NCBI GenBank assembly: GCA_947444305.1
Contig: CANEZP010000002.1
Span: forward strand, 124,001-188,000
DNA: 64,000 nucleotides
DNA from: Pseudobdellovibrionaceae bacterium
GTDB taxonomy: Bacteria > Bdellovibrionota > Bdellovibrionia > Bdellovibrionales > UBA1609
Direction: 5' to 3'
The notes under the pieces are model-generated. The model saw only the letters and a program-made list of their open reading frames with translations, did not search any database and had not been told where the DNA came from. Below are positions 4,198 to 63,843 of this stretch, piece after piece; position 1 is the first letter of the stretch, and each line of letters starts with the position of its first letter. The position numbers and the translations under genes are program-made.

Positions 4198-5904
4198 TTA
4201 TTTTTCGCAGCCGAGCAGTTCACCCAGCCGGCACTTTTCTTGAATGCGTTCGGTGATGCGGTTCCAAATGTTGACCGACTGGCCGTTGATTTGGCCGGAA
4301 TAAATATCAATGCCGCCGACGCCGCGACGATTTGGATCTTTGTCGGCGCCGGGAAGGAATCTCCGAAGATCAATTCCGTTCGCGTCCGTCGCCGGTGGAC
4401 GGTTCGTGCCTTGTCCGTAACCGCCGAAGCCGCCGGCGCCACCGTCGGTGCTCGTATCGATCGCCGCCGCCGAGTAACCGCCGGCGCCACTAAATCCTTG
4501 CAGGACATCCGTCGTGTACCCGGGCGCGCCGCTCGGGCCGCGCGCGTTTTTACCGTCGAGCTTCGCGGGCGCTCCGCCTTCACCGCCGGGAATTCCGCCG
4601 CCGGAGTTATTCGCGATCGTGCCGTTCTTCACGCCCGTCGGTTGAAAACCGTTCGGGTCCGAATTCAAACCGCTCGCATCCGCACGTGGTTCTTGGATAT
4701 CAAAATCACCTTTGGTTTTTTTGCCCACGCCAGGGTCTACGCCGAACGAAGCTTCGCCCCGCTGTTCTTTTTCGTAGGCGAGCGCGCGGCACGCCGGTGA
4801 GTTTGGACTCGTGCTACAAGCCTGCGACATCGGATCATTTGCTGAGTCGAGCGACGCTTGGTTCATCGCGCCCGCATCGGCACCCGAACCAGGCGCGCCC
4901 GCGCCACCCGCGTTTTGCGGAGCGGCCGCGCTCATCTCTTGGCAAGCGGCGGCGGCTCCGCTCGAGCTTCCCGACGCGAGACCTTGGCTGCCCATTTGCG
5001 AAAGCAAAGACGAATAACCTTCGCAAGTGCTCACGCGATTGCGCAATTCACCGAGTGTTTGTTCGTAAATCTGCCGGCTATCGCAGCCCGAGCAATTCGA
5101 AAGGAGTTGATTGTATTTGTCGGCCATTTCTCCGCACGTGCCGGTGCAACTGCTGTAGCCCGAGTAGCAATTCGCGCCGGCGTTTTGATTCGCGTTCATG
5201 TTGCCGCCACCGGCTTGGTTGAGCTGCTGACAGTACGCCTGCATACTCGCGCGGTTCTGTTCGGCCGTTCCGTTTTGCGCGGGCGGGGCGGGCTGATTTG
5301 CGCTCGACTGCGAACCACTACAACTGTTTTTCGCTTTCGTTTGCAACTGACCACAAGCTTGCAAATCCTGCGAAGCCTGCTGCTGCGCCTGATTCCGATC
5401 CTGAGGCGTCGTCGCCGCGGGATCACTCTGACTCTTCGTCTTACCACCGGCCGAATCAGCCTTCTTCTCGCTTTGCTCTTTCGCGGCGGGACTCGGGCCA
5501 CGGCTAGGCGAAGGCTTGGGCGGATTAGTCCCTGGCGATGGACAGGGCTTATCCGAAAGTATGCGTCTTCCATTGCATATTTTCGTTGTTATCTCCGTAT
5601 CTGCGGAACAGCCGGTTTTACCTTTGCAGCCAGACTCTACCGAGCATGTTTTTTTCTGACACCAAGAGACTATCCACGTTTCACAGCTTACAACGTAATT
5701 GGCCAATCCCACATCAAGGATTCCGTGACAGATTGCTTTGCAACCGCCAAGTGCATTTGAATAAGTGGAATAGAGTGCACCTGACCTTTCAAGGCATTCA
5801 TTATATTTCGTTCGAGCAGCAGAGCCCTCTGACGAAAGACGGTCGGCGGCACTTATTTGAACAAAGGCTGCGAATGCCAGGGTGATAAGAATTCTGAACT
5901 GCAT
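4198..5904 (-). CDS. Large secreted Cys- and Gly-rich protein, unknown function
   Basis: This is a protein of about 568 residues. The ATG at 5904 begins a clear signal peptide (MQFRILITLAFAAFVQISAA). Residues 20-120 are Cys-rich, with about ten cysteines suggesting disulfides. A Pro/Ser/Lys linker follows (PSPGTNPPKPSPSRGPSP), then a Gln/Ala/Asn-rich segment with further Cys pairs (CSGCDSRQIYEQ). A long Gly/Ala/Ser/Asn low-complexity region ends in a more ordered tail (RRFLPGADKDPNRR onward) with two cysteines. I do not recognise the family. It points away from the serine peptidase array and is separated from it by 185 bp of shared intergenic DNA, so a functional link is possible but unproven. 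Confidence 0.75.
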   Translation of the reverse strand: MQFRILITLAFAAFVQISAADRLSSEGSAARTKYNECLERSGALYSTYSNALGGCKAICHGILDVGLANYVVSCETWIVSWCQKKTCSVESGCKGKTGCSADTEITTKICNGRRILSDKPCPSPGTNPPKPSPSRGPSPAAKEQSEKKADSAGGKTKSQSDPAATTPQDRNQAQQQASQDLQACGQLQTKAKNSCSGSQSSANQPAPPAQNGTAEQNRASMQAYCQQLNQAGGGNMNANQNAGANCYSGYSSCTGTCGEMADKYNQLLSNCSGCDSRQIYEQTLGELRNRVSTCEGYSSLLSQMGSQGLASGSSSGAAAACQEMSAAAPQNAGGAGAPGSGADAGAMNQASLDSANDPMSQACSTSPNSPACRALAYEKEQRGEASFGVDPGVGKKTKGDFDIQEPRADASGLNSDPNGFQPTGVKNGTIANNSGGGIPGGEGGAPAKLDGKNARGPSGAPGYTTDVLQGFSGAGGYSAAAIDTSTDGGAGGFGGYGQGTNRPPATDANGIDLRRFLPGADKDPNRRGVGGIDIYSGQINGQSVNIWNRITERIQEKCRLGELLGCEK

Positions 5905-6089: not shown

Positions 6090-6911
6090 ATGATCAGTCT
6101 TAGGTGGTTGTCTTTATTCGTTATTCTTGCAAATGCTAATCTTGCTCTCGGGTATCCCTTTTGCCATAACCAAGGTTCACTTGAGGAGCAAGCGGCGCTC
6201 CTCCACCGAGCAACGAGAATCGGTAGAGAAAACCGGCGGCCCATCCCGAAGGCGATGGAGAAGAAGTTTGCCGGCACCGGCCTTATAGTCTGCGGTAACG
6301 ACACCGTGACCGCGCAAGTCACGGGAAGTGCGAACGTAATCACAACTGCGGGCCACGTGTTTAGTACTGATGATTGTCAGCCAAAGAACCGAGAAAAGTG
6401 CCATTTTGAGCGAACAATCAACGGGCGCATCAAAGAATTTCGCTTGAACATTAAATCGCTTAAAACGGGCGGTCCTTGTCCGAGTGGCGAAAGGATGACC
6501 GATTGGGCTGTCATCAAATTGGAAGATCCAATGCCTGATGTCTCGCCTTACGAGATTCCGGATGAAGATAATTTGCTTAAAGAAGGTGAAAATATCCTAC
6601 AGATTACCGGGATGAGCGTCGATTACAGCGTGAATGGTGCACTCCCGAAAGCGATGGAAATGTGTCGAGCTGAAAAAATTGACCTAACTGCGTTGGCACC
6701 CGTTAAACATAGTTGTGACACGGGGGGTGCTTCATCGGGGAGCGCTCAGTTCGTCAAACGTGGTGATAAAATGATCTTCGCCGCCATGAACGTGGCGGAG
6801 CATGGCCACTTGCCGCCGGGCAGTGGGTTTGACGAAGAAATGAACTACAATACGTCAACGCCGGTGACCGGGCGTTTCCTGAAAGCAATTCGCGAAGCGA
6901 TGAAGCCGTGA
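6090..6911 (+). CDS. Secreted trypsin/V8-like serine peptidase, array copy 1
   Basis: This 273-residue chymotrypsin-fold peptidase has a signal peptide (about residues 1-21, ending LALG). The triad can be read as His89 in VITTAGHVF, Asp138 in MTDWAVIKLE and Ser216 in CDTGGASSGSAQF. Seven cysteines in the mature part suggest disulfides. ATG start with GGAG about 10 bases upstream. It is the first of six tandem paralogues of 273-278 residues, all on the plus strand with 4-base overlaps, so a single mRNA is likely. It ends GTGA, giving the GTG start of copy 2. Its last 55 codons are nearly identical to those of copy 5. The substrate is unknown; it should act in the periplasm or outside the cell. 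Confidence 0.9.
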   Translation: MISLRWLSLFVILANANLALGYPFCHNQGSLEEQAALLHRATRIGRENRRPIPKAMEKKFAGTGLIVCGNDTVTAQVTGSANVITTAGHVFSTDDCQPKNREKCHFERTINGRIKEFRLNIKSLKTGGPCPSGERMTDWAVIKLEDPMPDVSPYEIPDEDNLLKEGENILQITGMSVDYSVNGALPKAMEMCRAEKIDLTALAPVKHSCDTGGASSGSAQFVKRGDKMIFAAMNVAEHGHLPPGSGFDEEMNYNTSTPVTGRFLKAIREAMKP

Positions 6912-7744
6912 GCCCGACGATCAGGACAATATACATAAAATTTTTAGCCTTTACCATGTTTGGCATGTCACCTAGTCAAAGCGAAGCTATCGCGAACTGT
7001 TATCCCCAATCGTCCTGCTATCAAAACGGTCTCTTTCAACTTGCAACAAGGTTCTCAAGAGAAAATCGAAAGGTAATTCCAAAATCTCTTGAATCGAAGT
7101 TCGCGGCCACCGGAACAATCGATTGCGGGGCAGGTGCCGCAACGGCGCAGATTACAGGGAAGTCGAATGTCATCACGACCGTTGGACACTTCTTTCACGA
7201 TGAAAATTGCCAACCAAAAAATCGGGGTAAGTGTATGTTTCAGGTGACCGTAAACGGTCGCTTCACTGAATACCCCTTAAAAATGGATGCATTGAAGACG
7301 GGTGGTCGCTGTCCCTTGGACAAAGGTTTAACGGATTGGGCGGTACTTAAGCTTGAAACGGCTGTGCCAGGAATAACGCCTTACGAAGTGCCGGATGAAG
7401 ACAATCTGCTCAAAGCGGGCGAACAAATCATGCAGGTGTCAGGCTACGCCACAAACTTCATGGTGAGCGGTGCTTATCCGAAATCTATGGAGAGTTGTCT
7501 CGCGGATCAAATAGATCTTACCCACACCGATCCCATCAAACACACCTGTGATACGGGAAAGGGATCCTCCGGAAGCGCTCAGTTCGTGGTGCGCTCGAAA
7601 AAGATGATCTTCGCAGCGATGAATATAAGTCAGCAAAAAGATTTCCCGGACGGTTCCGATTACAATGCCGACAGTGCCTTCAATACATCTACACCTGTCA
7701 GCGGAAATTTCCTTAGCGCAATCCGCGAAGCGATGAAGCCGTGA
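6908..7744 (+). CDS. Secreted trypsin/V8-like serine peptidase, array copy 2
   Basis: This is a 278-residue paralogue of copy 1 and the most diverged member. GTG start within the GTGA overlap with copy 1. The signal peptide is followed by IANCYPQSSCYQNG, so it has two N-terminal cysteines where the others have one. The triad is intact: His in VITTVGHFF, Asp in LTDWAVLKLE, Ser in CDTGKGSSGSAQF. It differs from its sisters around the specificity region (VSGYATNFMVSGAYPK instead of ITGMSxxYSVNG), so it may cleave different bonds (inference). It ends in the GTGA that starts copy 3. Confidence 0.9.
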   Translation: MSPTIRTIYIKFLAFTMFGMSPSQSEAIANCYPQSSCYQNGLFQLATRFSRENRKVIPKSLESKFAATGTIDCGAGAATAQITGKSNVITTVGHFFHDENCQPKNRGKCMFQVTVNGRFTEYPLKMDALKTGGRCPLDKGLTDWAVLKLETAVPGITPYEVPDEDNLLKAGEQIMQVSGYATNFMVSGAYPKSMESCLADQIDLTHTDPIKHTCDTGKGSSGSAQFVVRSKKMIFAAMNISQQKDFPDGSDYNADSAFNTSTPVSGNFLSAIREAMKP

Positions 7745-8571
7745 GAACGACTGAATTCTATCTATTTGTATTAGTAATCATTGGGTTGTTTCCTCATTCA
7801 CGTGCGCAAGCTTACGTTTATTGCCATAACCAACCCTCAATCGAAAAGCAGATCGAATTTATCCATCCGGCAACCAGGATGGGTAAGGAAAGCCGGCAAC
7901 CCATCCCTAAAGCAATGGAACAAAAGTTTGCGGCAACAGGCTTAATCGTCTGTGGAGAAGCAACTGCGACCGCCCAAATCACTGGTGTTTCAAATCTTAT
8001 CACCACTGCGGGTCACCACTTTTACGACGAGAATTGCCAACCTATTAACAGAGGTAATTGCAACTTCGAAGTAAAACGTCACGGGAAAATATCTTCGATT
8101 CCTGTGAAGCTAGAGTCGCTTAAGACCGGCGGCCCATGCCCTTCGGATGATTTCAATAATGATTGGGCGGTGGTTAAACTCCAATCGCCCGTTGATGGTG
8201 TCACGCCATACGAAGTTCCCGAGGAAGATAACATGCTCGTCGAAGGTGAACCAATCATGCAGGTTACCGGGATGAGTATCAACTATAGCGTTAACGGCGC
8301 GTTTCCAAAGTCTATGGAATCCTGCATCGCCGAAAAGATTGATCTCAATCATCCGTCACCAGTCAAGCATGGCTGTGACACCGGTGGAGTGTCTTCGGGA
8401 AGCGCGCAGTTTGCGGTGAGAAATAAAAAAATGATTTTTGCGGCGATGAATGTCGGCGGCACAAAGAATGCGATGGACGGCACCGAGTTCGACGCGGACA
8501 CCAACTACAATAGCTCAACGCCGGTGTCGGGCCGATTCCTTAGAGCAATCAAGACGGCGATGAAGCCTTGA
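7741..8571 (+). CDS. Secreted trypsin/V8-like serine peptidase, array copy 3
   Basis: This is a 276-residue paralogue with GTG start overlapping copy 2. The signal peptide ends HSRAQA, and the mature protein starts YVYCHNQPSIEKQ. The triad is complete: His in LITTAGHHF, Asp in NDWAVVKLQ, Ser in CDTGGVSSGSAQF. The conserved array motifs RQPIPKAMEQKFAATGLIVCG and TPVSGRFLRAIKTAMKP are present. It ends TTGA, which supplies an unusual TTG start for copy 4. Confidence 0.9.
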   Translation: MRTTEFYLFVLVIIGLFPHSRAQAYVYCHNQPSIEKQIEFIHPATRMGKESRQPIPKAMEQKFAATGLIVCGEATATAQITGVSNLITTAGHHFYDENCQPINRGNCNFEVKRHGKISSIPVKLESLKTGGPCPSDDFNNDWAVVKLQSPVDGVTPYEVPEEDNMLVEGEPIMQVTGMSINYSVNGAFPKSMESCIAEKIDLNHPSPVKHGCDTGGVSSGSAQFAVRNKKMIFAAMNVGGTKNAMDGTEFDADTNYNSSTPVSGRFLRAIKTAMKP

Positions 8572-9398
8572 GACCAACACCGTTGTTTATAGTTCTTTTG
8601 ACGATCGCCGGGATCATTTTTGGTTTCTCTGCCGATGCTTACAATTATTGCCATAACCAGTTTTCGATCGAAAAACAGTTTGAATTACTCCATCCTGTAA
8701 CCAGAATGGGTCGAGAAAGCCGACGCCCAATCCCGAAAGCAATGGAGTCGAAGTTTGCCGCTACCGGCTTGATCATTTGTGGCTCGGACTCGGTGACCGC
8801 ACAGGTTACGGGGAGTGCAAATGTTCTGACCACCGTAGGCCACATCTTTAGTACCACCGACTGTCAGCCGGTCAATCGAGACAACTGTCACTTTGAACGC
8901 ACGGTGAATGGCCGAATCAAAGAGTATCCCTTAAAAATGAAGTCCTTGAAAACAGGAGGCCCATGTTCGGATGATAATGGAAACAACGACTGGGCGGTCT
9001 TGAATCTAGAATCTCCCATTCCCGATGTGACCCCCTACGAAATTCCGGAAGACGATAATCTCCTAATCGAAGGTGAACAGATTCTTCAAATCACCGGCAT
9101 GAGCATCAACTATAGCGTAAACGGAAAGTTTCCAAAATCGATGGAGTTCTGTCGCGCCGAGCAGATTAATTTAAAACATCAGACTCCGGTAAAACACGGC
9201 TGTGATACGGGCGGCGTGTCTTCCGGATCTGCTCAATTCGTAAAACGAAACGATAAAATGATTTTCGCGTCGATGAATATCGATGAAAAAGCCAACGGCG
9301 CCGACGGCGAGAACTACGATTCAGAAACGAATTACAATGGCGCGACCCCGGTTTCGGGACGCTTCTTAAAAGCTATTCGTGCGGCGATGAAACCGTGA
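8568..9398 (+). CDS. Secreted trypsin/V8-like serine peptidase, array copy 4
   Basis: This is a 276-residue paralogue. The start is TTG inside the TTGA overlap with the stop of copy 3; no other start fits the signal peptide (MRPTPLFIVLLTIAGIIFGF...ADA). The triad is His in VLTTVGHIF, Asp in NDWAVLNLE and Ser in CDTGGVSSGSAQF. There are seven cysteines, as in copies 1, 3 and 5. Start by stop overlap with a TTG makes translational coupling likely and may lower expression relative to its neighbours (inference). Confidence 0.9.
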   Translation: MRPTPLFIVLLTIAGIIFGFSADAYNYCHNQFSIEKQFELLHPVTRMGRESRRPIPKAMESKFAATGLIICGSDSVTAQVTGSANVLTTVGHIFSTTDCQPVNRDNCHFERTVNGRIKEYPLKMKSLKTGGPCSDDNGNNDWAVLNLESPIPDVTPYEIPEDDNLLIEGEQILQITGMSINYSVNGKFPKSMEFCRAEQINLKHQTPVKHGCDTGGVSSGSAQFVKRNDKMIFASMNIDEKANGADGENYDSETNYNGATPVSGRFLKAIRAAMKP

Positions 9399-10228
9399 AG
9401 GAAGACAAACCTTATTTTATTTTTCTAACCCTCTTTCAATTGGCTTTTCACCCGTACGCTCAAGCGTACGTTTATTGCCATAACCAATCTTCGATCGAAA
9501 AACAAATAGAGTTTATTCAGCCGGCAACTAGGATCGGAGGGGAAAACCGTCGACCTATCCCAAAAGCTATGGAAAAGAAGTTTGCGGCGACAGGATTGAT
9601 TGTTTGCGGAACGGATACGGTAACTGCGCAGGTTACAGGAAGCGCAAATGTCATAACTACGGCCGGGCATCTCTTCGGGACTGACCATTGCCAACCCGTA
9701 AACCGGGATAACAAATGTAAATTTGAACGAACTATTAACGGAAAAATAAAATCATACCCACTCAATATCAAATCTTTAAAGATAGGCAGCCCTTGTGCTA
9801 GCGATGATCGAATAAACGATTGGGCGGTTTTGAAGTTGGAAGATCCAATATCGGACGTCACCCCGTATGAGATCCCTGAACAGGACAACCTTCTTATCGA
9901 GGGTGAAGACATCCTCCAGATCACTGGTATGAGCATCGACTATAGCGTAAACGGCACCTTTCCAAAATCTATGGAGATCTGCCGTGCGGAAAAAATCAAT
10001 CTCACCAATCGTTCACCCGTAAAGCATGGTTGTGATACCGGTGGCGTTTCCTCGGGAAGTGCGCAGTTCGTAAAACGTGGTGATAAAATGATCTTCGCCG
10101 CGATGAACGTGGCTGAGCATGGTCATCTGCCCCCGGGCAGTGGCTTTGACGAAGAGATGAACTACAATACATCAACCCCGGTGACCGGGCGTTTCCTTGC
10201 GGCAATTCGTGCGGCGATGAAGCCATGA
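9395..10228 (+). CDS. Secreted trypsin/V8-like serine peptidase, array copy 5
   Basis: This is a 277-residue paralogue with GTG start overlapping copy 4. The signal peptide ends HPYAQA, then YVYCHNQSSIEKQ. The triad is His in VITTAGHLF, Asp in INDWAVLKLE and Ser in CDTGGVSSGSAQF. The N-terminal half most resembles copies 3 and 4. From VKRGDKMIFAAMNVAEHGHL to the end it is almost identical to copy 1, also at synonymous positions, which suggests gene conversion. It ends ATGA, supplying the ATG of copy 6. Confidence 0.9.
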   Translation: MKEDKPYFIFLTLFQLAFHPYAQAYVYCHNQSSIEKQIEFIQPATRIGGENRRPIPKAMEKKFAATGLIVCGTDTVTAQVTGSANVITTAGHLFGTDHCQPVNRDNKCKFERTINGKIKSYPLNIKSLKIGSPCASDDRINDWAVLKLEDPISDVTPYEIPEQDNLLIEGEDILQITGMSIDYSVNGTFPKSMEICRAEKINLTNRSPVKHGCDTGGVSSGSAQFVKRGDKMIFAAMNVAEHGHLPPGSGFDEEMNYNTSTPVTGRFLAAIRAAMKP

Positions 10229-11051
10229 AAATAAAATCGGCGAGCTTGAGATTGGTCTACATCTTCATATCCTTCGTGCCCCTTATTCCGCGGCGCACGT
10301 ATACACTCACGGTCAAAGTTTATTGCAGAGGGAGAGATCCTTACGCCATCCCGCGAGCAGAATGGGTGTCGAGAATCGTAAACCCATCCCCAAGTCGCTG
10401 GAAAAAAAGTTCGCCGCAACGGGTTTGATTATATGCGGGACGGATGCCGCCACCGCCCAGGTCACCGGGGCGGAAAAAGTTTTGACAACGGCAGGCCACC
10501 AATTCGCCGATGATAAGTGTCAGCCGACCAATCGGGAAAAGTGTCATTTCGAGCGTACGGTGAACGGCCGGATAAAAGAGTATCCGCTGGACATGAAGTC
10601 TCTCAAGGTTGGTGGACCGTGCGCGGACGGCGTAAATGATTGGGCGGTCGTGAAGCTGAGAGCACCCATTCCCGGTGTCACGCCATACGAAATACCTGAA
10701 GAAGAAAATATTTTGATCGAGGGCGAAGAGATCGTCCAGATTTCTGGGTTTCACGATAACTACAGCATAAACGGAAGTTATCCCCGGACGATGGAGATCT
10801 GCCGGGCTGAGCATATCGATCTGAAACATACGATAGCGCCGATTAAACATAGCTGCGACACCGGTGGTGGTTCTTCCGGCAGCGCTCAATTTGTAACAAG
10901 GAACGGCAAGATGATCTTTGTTGCAATCAACATCAATCACCAAAATAAACAGAGCGATGGGGACGATTACTACGCAGACACCAACTATAATGGTGCGACT
11001 CCTGTTTCGGGAAGATTACTTAAAGCTATTCGCGACGCGATGAAGCCCTAA
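10225..11051 (+). pseudogene. Serine peptidase array copy 6, single frameshift near the signal peptide
   Basis: An ATG overlapping the copy 5 stop opens a frame coding a signal-peptide-like start (MKIKSASLRLVYIFISFV). The homologous mature region, from AAHVYTHGQS onward, lies in the -1 frame and runs to 11051. The switch maps to the CCCC run at 10279-10282; one extra C there would restore a 275-residue protein with a normal ...SAA cleavage site. The triad is otherwise intact: His in VLTTAGHQF, Asp in VNDWAVVKL, Ser in CDTGGGSSGSAQF. The N-terminal Cys found in its sisters is Thr here. It is either a recent pseudogene, a phase-variable or recoded gene, or a sequence error; a conventional re-start (TTG 10323) would lack the signal peptide. 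Confidence 0.8.
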
Positions 11052-57282: not shown

Positions 57283-58428
57283 CTACGGTAATTGAGGGCA
57301 ACGTAAAGTGACCGAGGTGCCCTTGCCTAATTCGGATCGAATGACGACGTCGCCGCCGCAGGCGCGAAGTGTATTGATGGCGTGGGAGAGGCCAAGGCCG
57401 CTTCCCCCGACCTTGCCTTCGGTGACGCCCGCATGACCCACGCGGCTCAGTAGTTCGTCGGTCATTCCTTTTCCGTTATCGGTTACGGTATATTCGCTGA
57501 ACGAGGCGGCCGTAGTTCCGCTCACGATAATTTCGCCTTTCGTGCCCAAAACTTCGACCGCGTTATTCAAAATGTTTGAAAACACCCGCGTTAAACCGGC
57601 CGGCGAAACTGCGAGGGGTGCCGTAGGTAAAGACTGAATGATGATTTTAATTTCTGAACGCGGGCCTAATGAAAAACTCTTTTCCGCGATGACTTGGCGA
57701 AGCAATTCATCGGGACTTTGCGCGACTTCGACCGGCCGGCTGCCGTCGAGAAGGTCTTGGGCAATCTCGTTGATGCGCCCGGCGGCGCCGGCGAGCAATT
57801 TGCGATGATCATCGGGAATGTTCTTTAAGCTCTTCTCAACAATCATCAGTGCGGAGAGTGGCGAGCGAATATCATGGGCAACCTGTCTTGCCATCGCGGC
57901 TTTGGCGTTGGCCCTTTCGAACGCTAACGATTCTTCGTGACGGGCGACGATCAGCGCACGGGCCCAACGGGAAAACGGCAGCGCGAAGCTCAACAGAACA
58001 AGCCAGACGAAGAACGCCACGCGGGTCGATGTCCAGCCGTCGTAATAAAAAGACAAAGTACCGACGTTACCCGCCGAGGGAGTCACCGGATCGTTCAACA
58101 CCTGAACCGGTATGCGTAGTTGAAAAAGACCGCGCGCGCCCGTTTCCGAAACGTCGGAGGGGAGTGAGAATACCGGGTGGCCCTCCGAAGTTTCAAAACG
58201 AACGGAATCGAAGTTACTTTTCAACGCAGGATTTAGAGTTAGCATCGCTTGCCGGAGGTCGTTGATCATGATGCTCGTGCGCGCCGACAGCGCGAACGAT
58301 TCCGCCAAGGACTTCTGGTGAAAATAATTGAGAACAAAGAACGCGGATAGAGAGATGACGAGAGCCGCCGCGTAAGCGCCGATCAAAGCTGTTCTTAATT
58401 TCTTCAAGGTGGCGTTTAAGTTGTTCAT
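57283..58428 (-). CDS. Sensor histidine kinase, last gene of the YcaO operon
   Basis: This 381-residue protein has TM1 (about residues 13-34), a periplasmic loop of about 100 residues, TM2 (about 137-155), then the HisKA domain with ARQVAHDIRSPLSALM (phospho-acceptor His185) and the ATPase domain with the N box SNILNNAVEVLG, G1 TDNGKGMTDE and G2 GGSGLGLSHAI. All catalytic motifs are intact. No response regulator is encoded next to it. It starts 5 bp after the YcaO stop, so it should be made with the YcaO protein and the binding protein. Confidence 0.9.
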   Translation of the reverse strand: MNNLNATLKKLRTALIGAYAAALVISLSAFFVLNYFHQKSLAESFALSARTSIMINDLRQAMLTLNPALKSNFDSVRFETSEGHPVFSLPSDVSETGARGLFQLRIPVQVLNDPVTPSAGNVGTLSFYYDGWTSTRVAFFVWLVLLSFALPFSRWARALIVARHEESLAFERANAKAAMARQVAHDIRSPLSALMIVEKSLKNIPDDHRKLLAGAAGRINEIAQDLLDGSRPVEVAQSPDELLRQVIAEKSFSLGPRSEIKIIIQSLPTAPLAVSPAGLTRVFSNILNNAVEVLGTKGEIIVSGTTAASFSEYTVTDNGKGMTDELLSRVGHAGVTEGKVGGSGLGLSHAINTLRACGGDVVIRSELGKGTSVTLRCPQLP

Positions 58429-58433
58429 GATTT

Positions 58434-59411
58434 CTAGTTAAATGGGTGAGGTAGTTTTGGCAATTGAACAAAAGTCCGGGGCGTTCCCAAAAACTCGGCG
58501 ATTCGGTTGACGTTCAGGTTGCGCGAATTCGGCGCGCCTAAAAACAGATCTTGGGCGCCGGAAGATTGCGCCCTCGCAAAGTACAAAGGACAGCCCGCCA
58601 ATTCGAGACTTTTACTGGTGATCATTTCAGTCTTGATCTTTTCGGCATCCATGGCGAACGACGGCTTCGCTTCGGCCGGCTTGAATAAGTGTTCGATCCT
58701 GGCGGCGTAAGCAAGATTCAACGCCAAGTTTCCATGATCGCGGAACGTGGGATTTGGGATCCGCAAGAAATCTTCCAAGGATTTTCCGGTTAAACCTCCG
58801 TCGGATTCAAGCAGGTGGGCCAACTGGCGCGTCGCCTCGAAGGCGGCCGCGGTTAAGGATTCGGACGGCGTACTTTTGTTACCGGCCCCGAGAATAAAGC
58901 CGAAAGGCCGCGCCTTATATTCTCGTCCATCGATAACCCAAAGGACCCCGGCCGTGCCGAGCTCAAAAAGTTGAAACGAGATTCCCTTATCGGCAAACCA
59001 CGGCGTGAGTTCGCGGATCAGGGGCGTTTGCGGAACGTCCTTACTTAACGCTACGAACGGGCGTTCTCCGTAGAAATGACAGAGGATGCCGTCGCGTTCG
59101 ATCAATTCACCGCGGGCCGAAGCGGCGGCGGCTTCCGGCGTGGCGTGGGCGGCGAGACCGTTCGTCGTCGGGAAATTGAATTCCTCACTGACGGCCCGCT
59201 CGACCGCTTCGGCGGTTGCTTTGACCAAGGCGAGATCCGCGTCTTCGTCGGCCGAAAAGCCCGTAAATATTTTGCCGCCGATCGAGACCTGAACGCGTAG
59301 ATCGGTGAATCGCGGCAGGACGGACCGAACCCAGCTGAGTTGATCGATTTTCAACTTCAGGGGACCGGCATTGCTAAGAATCCATAGGACTATTTCTTTT
59401 GCATCCGCCAT
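58434..59411 (-). CDS. YcaO-domain protein, candidate peptide cyclodehydratase
   Basis: This is a protein of about 325 residues. ATP-binding motifs of YcaO enzymes are seen in order: ALVKATAEAVERAV (residues 61-74), NGLAAHATPEAAAASAR and GELIERDGILCHFYG (101-115), then ESLTAAAFEATRQLAHLL with the E...Q pair. The C-terminus is QLPKLPHPFN, close to the PxPxP tail that azoline-forming YcaO proteins need. YcaO enzymes use ATP to activate peptide backbone amides, forming azolines, thioamides or amidines. The partner (E1-like or Ocin-ThiF domain) is absent. The ATG at 59411 overlaps the upstream SBP gene by 22 bp; a histidine kinase follows. Confidence 0.82.
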   Translation of the reverse strand: MADAKEIVLWILSNAGPLKLKIDQLSWVRSVLPRFTDLRVQVSIGGKIFTGFSADEDADLALVKATAEAVERAVSEEFNFPTTNGLAAHATPEAAAASARGELIERDGILCHFYGERPFVALSKDVPQTPLIRELTPWFADKGISFQLFELGTAGVLWVIDGREYKARPFGFILGAGNKSTPSESLTAAAFEATRQLAHLLESDGGLTGKSLEDFLRIPNPTFRDHGNLALNLAYAARIEHLFKPAEAKPSFAMDAEKIKTEMITSKSLELAGCPLYFARAQSSGAQDLFLGAPNSRNLNVNRIAEFLGTPRTFVQLPKLPHPFN

Positions 59412-60853
59412 AGATCCGTCGTTGAAGATAAGTTGGAAAAGTTTAATGACCACTCGCTTGAGGCGACCGCGTAATAGGGTGAAGCCGAGAAAGGATAGAT
59501 GACGACGTTTTTGAGTAACTCAAAATGAAGCCGGTTCAGCTTAACGATGCGCTCTTCTTTAGAACTTGTCGCTAGATAATCGTCGAGCCACGAGTCGGTT
59601 GAAAGACCATCCAGATGAAAAATGCCGACCTCGAAATTATGCCCCAATAAAGATAGATTCTCGTTCCAAGCCGAATCGGTTGCGCCGAAATACATGTCCG
59701 GACGTTGCTTCATCTCATATTCAAAAGGAAAGCGTTCCATCCCGACGACCTTGATGTCCGTTTGCGCAGAAAATTCTTTTTTATAAGCCTCGGCGTAATT
59801 GAATTGCACACCGAGGGTGATCGGCTTGTGTAATGTTTCGGCGGTGCGGCGCACTTCCTCGACGTCCACGGCTTGCTCTGCCGTCAGTGAACCGTCACTG
59901 AGCGCTTGGAAAAATTGAAATGTAGGCCGGCCCGTCGGTGAGGGATAGAGCTTCGTCTTTGCGGCGGCGTAGGTCTGTGCCGCGCGTAATCTTTCTTGAA
60001 CGGAAAAGTTCTTTACCGCCGCTTTAGAAAAGCAAACGAGATCGACTCGGAAAGGTTGCGAAGAAAAAATAGAAAAATTTGACGATTCGGAAAGGAGTCT
60101 GGCCACCGCCTCCCCCGAGTAATATTCCGAAGTCGTGACCAAATCGACTTGGCCACTCTCGAGCAGAGCCGGCCCGGCACCCATCGCCGTCGGGACCATG
60201 TGAACGGTTTGCGGCATGGTCGGCTTATAATGAAAGTGACCGGGATTCGCCTGGAGGGTTATCCGGCCGTCGGCTGAATCGATCGAGACGAAGTAAGGTC
60301 CCGAGGTATTTCTAAAGTCGATGATTGTACGACCGTCTTCGTTCAACGAGGAACGCGGAATAATTCCGTAGTCGGCGCTCTCCAGCGCTGAGATCAAAAG
60401 CGGGACGTAGTGGGCTTGAACCGGGGTGAGCACGAGTTTATTCCCGTCCGTGCGGATGCCCGGGCAATGATCCATGACGGATTTTAAAGTGAAGTTCGGG
60501 CAAAGGAGCCTACGTATATCGCCGTGCCCGCTGCGGCCCAACGCGATCAAACGTTTGAGAGAAAATGCTGCGTCGTCGGCGGTGATAAGGTGACCGTCGA
60601 TCGTCGTGATCTTTTTGCCGAAGGTAAAAACAACTTCAGCGTTTTGTGCCTTAAAAGAGTCGGCGGCGCCGGCGACGAGTTGGTGATCGGCGTTATATTC
60701 GATCAAACGGGTGAATAGATTATTGGCTAAATTATATTGGGTGAGCGTGTGCAGCTTTGCCGTGTCTAGCGCTTTGATGCTTTCAAAGTACGGATATGAA
60801 ACACGCAAAACGGCATCCTTAAGTTCTGGTGAGGGCGTATGACGGGGAAGCAA
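59390..60853 (-). CDS. Peptide-type substrate-binding protein (SBP_bac_5), membrane anchored
   Basis: This is a protein of 487 residues from the nearest conventional start, TTG 60853. It has LTQYNLANNLFTRLIEYNAD, FGKKITTIDGHLITADDAAF and SLKRLI, the N-terminal pattern of OppA/DppA-type binding proteins. The same frame stays open upstream, without ATG, GTG or TTG, and codes RLNSNPALKLIAAGLVIAAA then AAIFLLP, a clear membrane anchor. An ATT at 60928, two bases after the small-peptide stop, could be the true start (512 residues). No permease or ATPase genes are near, so uptake by its own ABC system is not implied. It overlaps the YcaO start by 22 bp. Confidence 0.82.
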   Translation of the reverse strand: MLPRHTPSPELKDAVLRVSYPYFESIKALDTAKLHTLTQYNLANNLFTRLIEYNADHQLVAGAADSFKAQNAEVVFTFGKKITTIDGHLITADDAAFSLKRLIALGRSGHGDIRRLLCPNFTLKSVMDHCPGIRTDGNKLVLTPVQAHYVPLLISALESADYGIIPRSSLNEDGRTIIDFRNTSGPYFVSIDSADGRITLQANPGHFHYKPTMPQTVHMVPTAMGAGPALLESGQVDLVTTSEYYSGEAVARLLSESSNFSIFSSQPFRVDLVCFSKAAVKNFSVQERLRAAQTYAAAKTKLYPSPTGRPTFQFFQALSDGSLTAEQAVDVEEVRRTAETLHKPITLGVQFNYAEAYKKEFSAQTDIKVVGMERFPFEYEMKQRPDMYFGATDSAWNENLSLLGHNFEVGIFHLDGLSTDSWLDDYLATSSKEERIVKLNRLHFELLKNVVIYPFSASPYYAVASSEWSLNFSNLSSTTDLWRMQKK

Positions 60854-60929
60854 AAAGATAGCGGCCGCGGCCGCTATGACGAGCCCGGCAGCAATTAACT
60901 TAAGTGCCGGGTTTGAATTAAGTCGAATA

Positions 60930-61211
60930 CTAACAACCGCCGCCGACCGAGCTGCTGCAGTTCACTCCGGCTTCAACTTGGCTGGGCTGCAGTTCGTTCA
61001 CGGCTCCAAGGCTGCGCAACATTTCAAGGACCGACGAGTTGACGGTCAATTTACCACTTTGATCAACCTTGATTTGACCTGCCTGGATGAGCGCGGCCAT
61101 CGCCTCCGCGGATTCAACATCTGCGGTGCTGGGTAAGCCTGCGCCGGAAGTCGAAGCGGTGATAAGTGATGAAACGAGAGCGAGGGACTTAAGGAATTGA
61201 TTTGCGTTCAA
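60930..61211 (-). CDS. Candidate RiPP precursor peptide with Cys/Ser/Gly-rich C-terminus
   Basis: This 93-residue protein starts at TTG 61211, with GGAG 6 bases upstream. Residues 1-25 (NANQFLKSLALVSSLITAS) are hydrophobic and could be a signal or leader. The middle is helical and acidic (VESAEAMAALIQAGQIKVD, VLEMLRSLGAVNEL). The last ten residues are NCSSSVGGGC, containing both cysteines of the protein. Such a tail resembles cores of azole-modified peptides. It is the first gene of the SBP-YcaO-kinase operon. An upstream open frame to 61349 has no ribosome site. Alternative: an ordinary small secreted protein. Confidence 0.6.
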   Translation of the reverse strand: MNANQFLKSLALVSSLITASTSGAGLPSTADVESAEAMAALIQAGQIKVDQSGKLTVNSSVLEMLRSLGAVNELQPSQVEAGVNCSSSVGGGC

Positions 61212-61590
61212 GGAGCACTCCGCTAATTTTGTTTTAGATCGACCGAGATTCGCAAACTGATTTTGCAATCCCCAGACCGGTTTATAGCCACCCATTAAGC
61301 TTTTGGCGCGCAAAACTTTGATCCCTCTGTCGATTGCTCGTCTATCCATGAATAATTTCTAAAACCCGCGGCACTAAACCCAAAAAGCATCCACTCCCCA
61401 AAAATTCCTGCATTTTAACCTTCTTAAACAAGAACTTTTCCTACTCCTTAACTCTTGCCGCCGCGGACGGCGGCAAGAAGGACCTCTCACGGACGGAAGA
61501 TCTTCGCGCCTAACGAATCAGCCTCTCGAAGAAGCGATAACGCGAACCACGCAACTATCAAAAGGAGCGATGGTTTGCTAGGTTGCTGAA
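61212..61590. other. 379-bp intergenic region between divergent operon and RAYT gene
   Basis: It must carry the promoter of the leftward YcaO operon and that of the rightward transposase gene. I see the ribosome-binding site GGAG at 61218-61221 (minus), a hairpin at 61453-61478 and AT-rich DNA at 61350-61450, but no clear -35/-10 pair. A 31-codon frame (61390-61295, minus) after GGGGAG is probably not a gene. Confidence 0.7.
61453..61478. repeat. Perfect 11-bp GC-rich hairpin, REP-like
   Basis: TCTTGCCGCCG and CGGCGGCAAGA form a perfect stem with a CGGA tetraloop, 113 bp before the start of the RAYT transposase. RAYT enzymes act on such short palindromes (REPs), often in pairs beside their own gene. 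It could also be a terminator, but no T run follows. A second copy was not found close by. Confidence 0.5.
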
Positions 61591-62699: not shown

Positions 62700-63843
62700 A
62701 TGTCTGTAAGCACGCAAAGTTCCGAAACGAAGTCTGAGTTGATGAAGATGAAAGATAAAGTCTCCGAATTGCGGAGGTATCTTTGACATCGATATTAAAT
62801 CGAAACGCCTCGAAGAACTAGAGCAAAAAGCGCAAGATCCCTCGATCTGGAACAATCACCAGCAGATGCAGAAGCTCAACCAGGAAAAGGTTTTGCTCGA
62901 GCGTGCGGTCGCTGATTACAACGAACTCAATCAAAAAGTTGAAGACAACCTCGTGCTGCTCGAGATGGCGGTCGAGGCGCAAGACGAAGACAGCTTTAAA
63001 GAAGTAAAAGGCGATCTCGCGAACATCCGCGCTAGAATTGAAGATCTTGAACTAAAAAGTTTGTTGAACGGCGAGTTGGACGGGAACGGCGCTTACCTTT
63101 CGCTCCACGCGGGAGCGGGCGGGACCGAGTCGCAGGATTGGGCTTCCATCCTTTTACGGATGTACACGCGCTACGCCGAAAAACAGGGCTATAAGGTCGA
63201 AGTGCTGTCGATCAACGAAGGTGAAGAAGCAGGGATCAAGTCGGCCTCGCTGCTCATCCAAGGGCCTTACGCTTACGGAAATTTAAAAGCCGAATCCGGG
63301 GTCCACCGCCTGGTGCGCATCAGTCCGTTCGATTCGAACGCGCGCCGCCACACAAGTTTCGCCAGCGTACTCACCTGGCCCGAGATCAACGACGAAGTGA
63401 ACATCGACGTCAAAGACGAGGAAGTTCGAATCGACACCTACCGGTCGAGCGGGGCCGGCGGGCAGCACGTCAACAAAACCGATTCGGCGATTCGGATCAC
63501 GCACATTCCTACTGGGATTGTGGTCACCTGCCAAAACCAGCGCTCGCAACATGAAAATAGGGCTTTCGCTTGGAAGATGCTCAAAGCGCAACTTTACGAG
63601 CGCGAGATAGAAAAGCGCAAAGCAGACCTCAACGCCATCGCCGGCGAGAAAAAAGCGAACGAGTGGGGCTCGCAAATCCGCTCCTACGTTTTACATCCTT
63701 ACCAATTGGCCAAAGATCATCGCACCGAATTCGAAACCGGGAATCCCGCCGCCGTCCTCGATGGAGATTTAAGCGGGTTCATCCACGCATTTTTGCGCGA
63801 CAAAGCGCTTGAGGGCAAAGCGGCCGAGAAAGGCCCCGAGTGA
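62700..63843 (+). CDS. prfB: Peptide chain release factor 2, with programmed +1 frameshift
   Basis: RF2 ends translation at UGA and UAA. A 28-codon first frame runs from ATG 62700 to CTT then TGA (62784-62786). Shifting +1 at CTT TGA C continues as DIDIKSKRLEELEQK and on to 63843, about 380 residues in all. The RF2-specific SPF tripeptide is in VRISPFDSNARR, and the catalytic GGQ in SSGAGGQHVNKT. The upstream GGAGG-like stimulator is in place. A start at 62866 would lack the N-terminal domain and is wrong. The next gene overlaps the stop by GTGA. Confidence 0.96.
62772..62787 (+). promoter_or_regulatory. prfB +1 frameshift site
   Basis: CGGAGGTATCTTTGAC holds the internal Shine-Dalgarno-like AGG (GGAGG with the preceding base), the slippery CTT, the in-frame TGA stop and the C that weakens it. 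The layout is the classic RF2 autoregulation site: low RF2 leads to more frameshifting and more RF2. Confidence 0.95.

Follow-up and report, generated by a model that had tools for sequence, protein, structure and literature searches.

Gene organization at the locus

The window (the whole stretch of DNA analysed, 64,000 nucleotides) contains an operon of four genes on the same strand, encoding in order a small protein, a substrate-binding protein (SBP), a YcaO enzyme and a sensor histidine kinase (HK). Its features are as follows.

60930 to 61211, minus strand: proposed YcaO substrate (RiPP precursor), a small Sec-type protein of 93 aa with a TTG start (ORF list, family comparison)
61218 to 61221, minus strand: ribosome-binding site GGAG, 6 nt before the TTG (read from the sequence)
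61137 to 61211, minus strand: N-terminal signal peptide, about residues 1-25 (hydrophobic N-terminus here and in homologues; heuristic)
61002 to 61127, minus strand: compact helix-strand-strand-helix domain, residues 29-70, proposed recognition part (AlphaFold2 pLDDT about 90; conserved Leu/Gly positions)
60933 to 60962, minus strand: disordered tail NCSSSVGGGC, residues 84-93, proposed core (low pLDDT; Cys column)
59390 to 60928, minus strand: OppA-like SBP, membrane-anchored (SBP_bac_5 match below cut-off; profile matches to OppA, MppA and PrgZ)
58434 to 59411, minus strand: YcaO enzyme of 325 aa, ending LPHPFN and overlapping the end of the SBP gene (Pfam 4e-13; profile and structure comparisons)
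57283 to 58428, minus strand: sensor HK with two TM segments and a periplasmic domain (domain search, TM segments)

The 93-residue small protein reads LNANQFLKSLALVSSLITASTSGAGLPS...VEAGVNCSSSVGGGC, and Cys85 and Cys93 are its only cysteines. An earlier note on this DNA had described a 93-codon gene with a TTG start and a ribosome site, placed first in an operon with a YcaO gene and encoding both cysteines within the last ten residues. All of this was confirmed, the SBP gene being located between the small gene and that for YcaO. Upstream of the TTG the frame stays open as far as an ATG at 61349, which would give a protein of 139 aa; the TTG was favoured since a protein begun there has the length (about 93 aa) and the N-terminal signal common to the family. 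Searches of Pfam, NCBIfam and PADLOC gave no credible match for the small protein.

No ATG, GTG or TTG is found ahead of the membrane anchor of the SBP (window 60853-60931), the first listed start being a TTG at 60853. Translation of the SBP probably starts at an ATT at 60928, directly behind the stop codon of the precursor, a position that suggests translational coupling of the two genes. The TM segments of the HK (about 13-35 and 134-155) flank its periplasmic domain, and no response regulator gene adjoins the HK gene. The earlier note had left out the peptide-binding protein and the sensor kinase, both of which point to signalling.

Elsewhere in the window, the release factor 2 gene (about 62701-63843, plus strand) has an apparent classic programmed frameshift site at 62773-62786 (aggtatctttgac, with an in-frame TGA). 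At 6090-11051, six paralogues in tandem encode secreted proteins of about 242-278 aa with a shared CDTGG.SSGSAQF motif, similar to the active site of a serine protease; the two of the six that were scanned had no match in Pfam.

Conservation of the module in Bdellovibrionota

Relatives were sought with the window YcaO and then with the profiles A1 (order) and A2 (phylum). At the level of the order, A1 (E up to 1e-8) had matches in 51 of 140 genomes, and at that of the phylum A2 (E up to 1e-12) had them in 104 of 368, the weakest matches including other YcaOs. Among the named records, MAGs of Bdellovibrionaceae, Bacteriovoracales and Oligoflexia predominate. In a scan of contigs with the SBP alignment, which favours close relatives, all strong matches were from Bdellovibrionota or unclassified MAGs, and the weak matches in other phyla (L213-L220) cover short stretches only. 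No relatives were found in the viral contigs or plasmids searched.

Two layouts were seen, type A being (response regulator)-small protein-SBP-YcaO-HK and type B YcaO-small protein-SBP-HK-response regulator. The small gene was assigned by a fixed rule, as the longest ORF with a hydrophobic N-terminus that ends near the SBP start. By this rule a small secreted ORF lies directly upstream of the SBP gene in 72 of 78 non-redundant modules with SBP and YcaO. The small gene is not a chance ORF, because homologues fill the same slot in these modules and dN/dS between close homologues is 0.05-0.33 (purifying selection). Judged from this selection, the small proteins are a true gene family. Many relatives add an NtrC-type response regulator with sigma-54 and receiver domains. 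No further conserved gene, and no transporter gene, was found in the conserved module. A sigma-54 promoter motif was seen upstream of 3 of the 72 precursors against 0.08 expected from a simple shuffle, too few to use, and was absent upstream of the window precursor.

Two genomes (G135 and G089) have four to five YcaO modules each with differing tails, as expected for parallel insulated channels. At one locus (L076, oriented 4500-5090), copies resembling the precursor are arranged in tandem ahead of a single SBP gene and have repeated Lys/Arg-Cys tails (AKCNMADVN, GRCETI, SGKCEGI). Adjoining another module (L040:8900-13530) are long, regularly spaced repeat arrays (ORFs SDWLTDSHLLF / NNRWESVSQSE), probably CRISPR arrays.

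The tail cysteine, signal and domain of the small proteins

A cysteine was present in the last 20 residues of 56 of the 72 small proteins, where the Cys content of the remainder of these proteins predicts 15% (binomial p 1.3e-31; this value overstates independence since the members are related by descent, but their tails differ strongly around the Cys). By the same measure, 2/78 SBPs, taken as a control, and 14/78 YcaOs have such a Cys. For alignment, 46 type-A sequences were picked by layout and divergent members were left out. Conserved in these are a charged-hydrophobic N-terminus, a Leu/Gly block and one Cys. This tail Cys, with which Cys85 of the window protein aligns, is invariant (46/46), and the rest of the tail is variable (SSICVGG, GVVCTDS, SGKCEGI, TGAICD, SSICY). 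The tail pattern in type B is Pro-[Ser/Thr]-Cys-[Ile/Val/Trp]. Leader and tail are found as separate conserved blocks in the type-A family, the point on which the earlier note had wished to see orthologues aligned.

Three divergent members (L101, L105, L154) have Ser in place of the tail Cys, and these swaps fit a heterocyclisable residue rather than a disulfide. In seven others, also divergent, the expected position is occupied by neither of these residues, or the motif is internal (L041, L096, L100, L109, L169, L171, L172), which counts against the mechanism proposed below. The earlier note had proposed a candidate azole-type precursor from the two cysteines and the run of Ser and Gly in the tail. 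A YcaO substrate with leader and tail blocks survives from this proposal; the azole-forming run does not, as the family conserves one Cys only.

Signal character, assessed by heuristic, is a family trait: Lys or Arg occurs in the first eight residues of 70 of 72 members, and an AxA-like site in 51 of 72. The Sec-like N-terminus remarked on in the earlier note is thus upheld. The conflict that it had seen between such a signal and modification in the cytoplasm falls away with the precedent of bufferins, for which Sec export was demonstrated experimentally and a partner protein of the enzyme was suggested to mask the signal peptide until modification is done (PMC12452194).

The AlphaFold2 model of the window protein has a compact domain at residues 29-67, or to 70 as listed above (pLDDT about 90), moderate overall confidence (pLDDT 70, pTM 0.43) and pLDDT below 50 over residues 78-88 and 90-93. 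A fold search with this model gave chance-level matches only (best E 0.87) and no solved fold, which does not imply a new one. The earlier note had named two grounds for giving up its proposal, orthologous tails lacking Cys or Ser and a structural match to a known secreted family. Most orthologues keep the tail Cys, with Ser in the three divergent members, and no such family appeared in the fold search.

The YcaO enzyme and its probable chemistry

The window YcaO matches the Pfam family (PF02624) with 49.7 bits against a curated cut-off of 25.7, and its ATP/Mg glutamates E68, E102 and E105 are invariant in all 78 YcaOs. Its AlphaFold2 model (pLDDT 92) is closest to LynD (Z 21.9, 3.2 A, 282 residues), followed by MusD (Z 21.7, 3.3 A, 287 residues) and McbD (Z 19.9, 3.6 A, 275 residues), in each case through the C-terminus, whereas the alignment with thioamide-forming YcaOs (Z about 19) stops at residue 310. 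Rows resembling dsRBDs in the structural list were taken as a common alpha-beta arrangement and not as relatedness. In the comparison of the YcaO profile with PDB sequences, the M. jannaschii YcaO, a thioamide-forming enzyme, ranked best (2e-14) and McbD next. The small protein is very probably the substrate of this enzyme and a Sec-exported RiPP precursor, because its tail Cys is conserved, its slot upstream of the SBP is constant, the ATP/Mg site is retained and the YcaO model fits azoline-forming YcaOs best.

In azoline formation a YcaO is usually assisted by an E1-like or ocin-ThiF partner, and the absence of one from the operon counts against the mechanism proposed below; neither such a partner nor an FMN dehydrogenase is present among the four identified operon genes or conserved in the modules of relatives. 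The bottromycin YcaOs are exceptions to the partner requirement (PMC8442711). A C-terminal PxPxP motif is a feature of azoline-forming YcaOs (PMC12670281); the end P-H-P-x or a relative of it was found in 52 of 78 YcaOs, including most of the long ones and the window enzyme (LPHPFN). Many element-borne copies have short YcaOs (about 265 aa) without the Pro-His-Pro end, a second point against that mechanism. With one conserved Cys and no dehydrogenase, an azoline or another single YcaO modification is likelier than azoles. The azole product expected in the earlier note is not borne out, the operon having no azole oxidase.

It is unlikely, though deserving the most serious consideration among the alternatives, that the same system employs other chemistry, the YcaO installing a backbone thioamide or amidine in a Gly-rich tail or releasing the tail as an ATP-dependent peptidase. 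The rank of the M. jannaschii enzyme in the profile search is in keeping with this, as is the closeness of MusD, structurally equal to that of LynD, since the title of the MusD entry reports ATP-dependent peptidase activity. Several tails are Gly-rich and some are without Cys (L158 SKGGGGA, L162), and an amidine formed between the last two residues has been reported for ItfB (PMC10352776). However, the conserved residue is Cys (or Ser) and not Gly, and the C-terminal segment of the model superposes on heterocyclases rather than on thioamide enzymes. TfuA and a second YcaO are both absent from the genome of the window. The modelled structure, the lone YcaO and the lack of TfuA favour putative azoline chemistry over thioamide, amidine or peptidase chemistry.

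The substrate-binding protein and alternative roles of the small protein

The SBP profile matches oligopeptide binders, namely OppA (9e-14), MppA (2e-13) and the pheromone-binding PrgZ (1e-7), much better than metal binders, the match to NikA being weak (2e-4). Import is not an evident purpose of the module because no transporter gene belongs to it.

SBP family 5 includes nickel and metallophore binders such as NikA. The tail with its Cys, Ser, Gly and His could be an exported periplasmic metal ligand, the SBP and kinase sensing its metal complex; some tails have His or several Cys (L142, L173, L178), and bufferins are Sec-exported Cys-bearing RiPPs of this kind (PMC12452194). Such a role is improbable, since the module encodes neither an ABC permease nor a TonB receptor, only one tail Cys is present in most members (replaced by Ser in three), and metal binders are outscored in the profile search.

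A slim chance is left to a CpxP-like role, in which the small protein would itself be a periplasmic regulator of the kinase, its Cys forming a disulfide and the YcaO modifying something else. The small protein is exported by sequence, has a predicted folded domain and contains extra domain cysteines in some members (L035, L036, L044). Yet a second Cys for pairing is absent in many, the Cys lies in the disordered tail and can be swapped for Ser, and this protein is the constant small neighbour in the module. An antibacterial or anti-prey secreted peptide, with the SBP-kinase pair merely regulating or resisting it, comes to mind since many YcaO products are antibiotics and the host phylum is known for predators, but it is quite improbable for a conserved module that has no transporter, immunity or protease gene and in which a peptide-binding protein and kinase are linked nearly every time.

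Association with conjugation genes

Homologues of the conjugation proteins TraC, TraL or TrbC, or of a small protein encoded beside them, were found at 16 of the 78 modules, for which a few kb were fetched. Across the order, a TraC gene is located within 20 kb of 30 of the 75 YcaO matches; random placement within these genomes would give 2.06, and the 200,000 simulations never exceeded 10. Further links may be hidden by fragmented assemblies. Two of the TraC-linked regions encode VirB8, CagX/VirB9, TrbI/VirB10, a VirB6-like protein, a coupling protein and a serine recombinase; by this gene content, they hold parts of an integrative conjugative element. Modules beside a T4SS operon were noted at L043, L044, L085, L089, L090, L093, L097, L102, L105, L107, G055:C19 (L222-L223) and G135:C153 (L224). 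Two of these loci also have a large serine recombinase, and together the loci point to an apparently undescribed family of integrative conjugative elements in Bdellovibrionota.

Proximity to TraC was seen for 21 of 28 modules with an adjacent response regulator and for 0 of 15 without (p 1.5e-6). The window module is of the subtype without response regulator, and no TraC match was found in its genome (G000); for this copy, both points weigh against the mechanism proposed below.

Proposed mechanism

We consider it probable that the operon specifies a Sec-exported RiPP precursor whose tail is modified by the operon YcaO, bound by the SBP and reported to the HK. Modification of the C-terminal tail by the YcaO would take place in the cytoplasm, ahead of export through Sec, and the folded domain that follows the signal peptide would be the recognition element. 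The most likely chemistry would be an ATP-dependent cyclodehydration converting the conserved Cys to a thiazoline or, in a few relatives, Ser to an oxazoline. Once in the periplasm, and probably trimmed, the modified tail would be bound by the membrane-anchored OppA-like protein, which would in turn signal its presence to the sensor kinase. Many relatives encode a sigma-54 (NtrC-type) response regulator together with the kinase.

More tentatively, and with less than even expectation, the module may be a Gram-negative pheromone system in which a YcaO-modified, Sec-exported RiPP, sensed through an OppA-like periplasmic receptor and a two-component pathway, controls the transfer of integrative conjugative elements of Bdellovibrionota. 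Offshoots on the chromosome without an adjacent response regulator, of which the window copy would be one, may serve host signalling.

Comparison with known systems

No published description of a YcaO with an SBP and a kinase, or of a YcaO peptide in Bdellovibrionota, was found in the open-access literature. To our knowledge, modified-peptide signalling with a dedicated periplasmic receptor has not been described for Gram-negative bacteria. The module looks like an undescribed system of this kind, often on mobile DNA, with putative chemistry and signalling as proposed above. It would add a RiPP family in which the leader is a Sec signal peptide and the enzyme a partnerless YcaO, and would give a complete, testable circuit of signal, maker, receptor and output in predatory-type bacteria. 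It would also suggest how conjugative elements of these bacteria may sense each other.

The general features of a RiPP are present, i.e., a ribosomal precursor, leader and core as separate conserved blocks and a modifying enzyme alongside. Membership in the LAP, YcaO-TfuA thioamide and bufferin classes fails for want of an E1-like partner or dehydrogenase, of TfuA and of MNIO, respectively. Azoline-forming YcaOs (LynD, McbD, MusD and the bottromycin thiazoline YcaO) share with the window enzyme the whole-length fold, the ATP/Mg glutamates and a Pro-containing C-terminus, but the window system differs in having no E1-like/ocin-ThiF partner or dehydrogenase, one conserved target residue and a substrate with a Sec signal. 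Bufferins and oxazolins (PMC12452194) are alike in that a Sec signal replaces the classical leader of a Cys-containing core bound for the periplasm, export here being assigned by heuristic. They use an iron-dependent MNIO enzyme with a DUF2063-type partner, neither of which is found among the window operon genes, in place of the YcaO, SBP and kinase seen here. Streptamidine and other standalone-YcaO RiPPs (PMC8442711) likewise have a standalone YcaO beside a short precursor; these are actinobacterial, with other precursor and tailoring genes and no SBP-kinase module described.

The pCF10 PrgZ/PrgX and ICEBs1 PhrI/RapI systems (PMC6540685) resemble the module in the secreted peptide derived from a longer precursor, the OppA-family binder and the frequent conjugative location, which holds for many relatives (30/75) and not for the window copy. 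The differences lie in the Gram-negative hosts, the proposed modification of the peptide by a YcaO and the proposed sensing by a kinase in the periplasm, as against import to a cytoplasmic RRNPP receptor.
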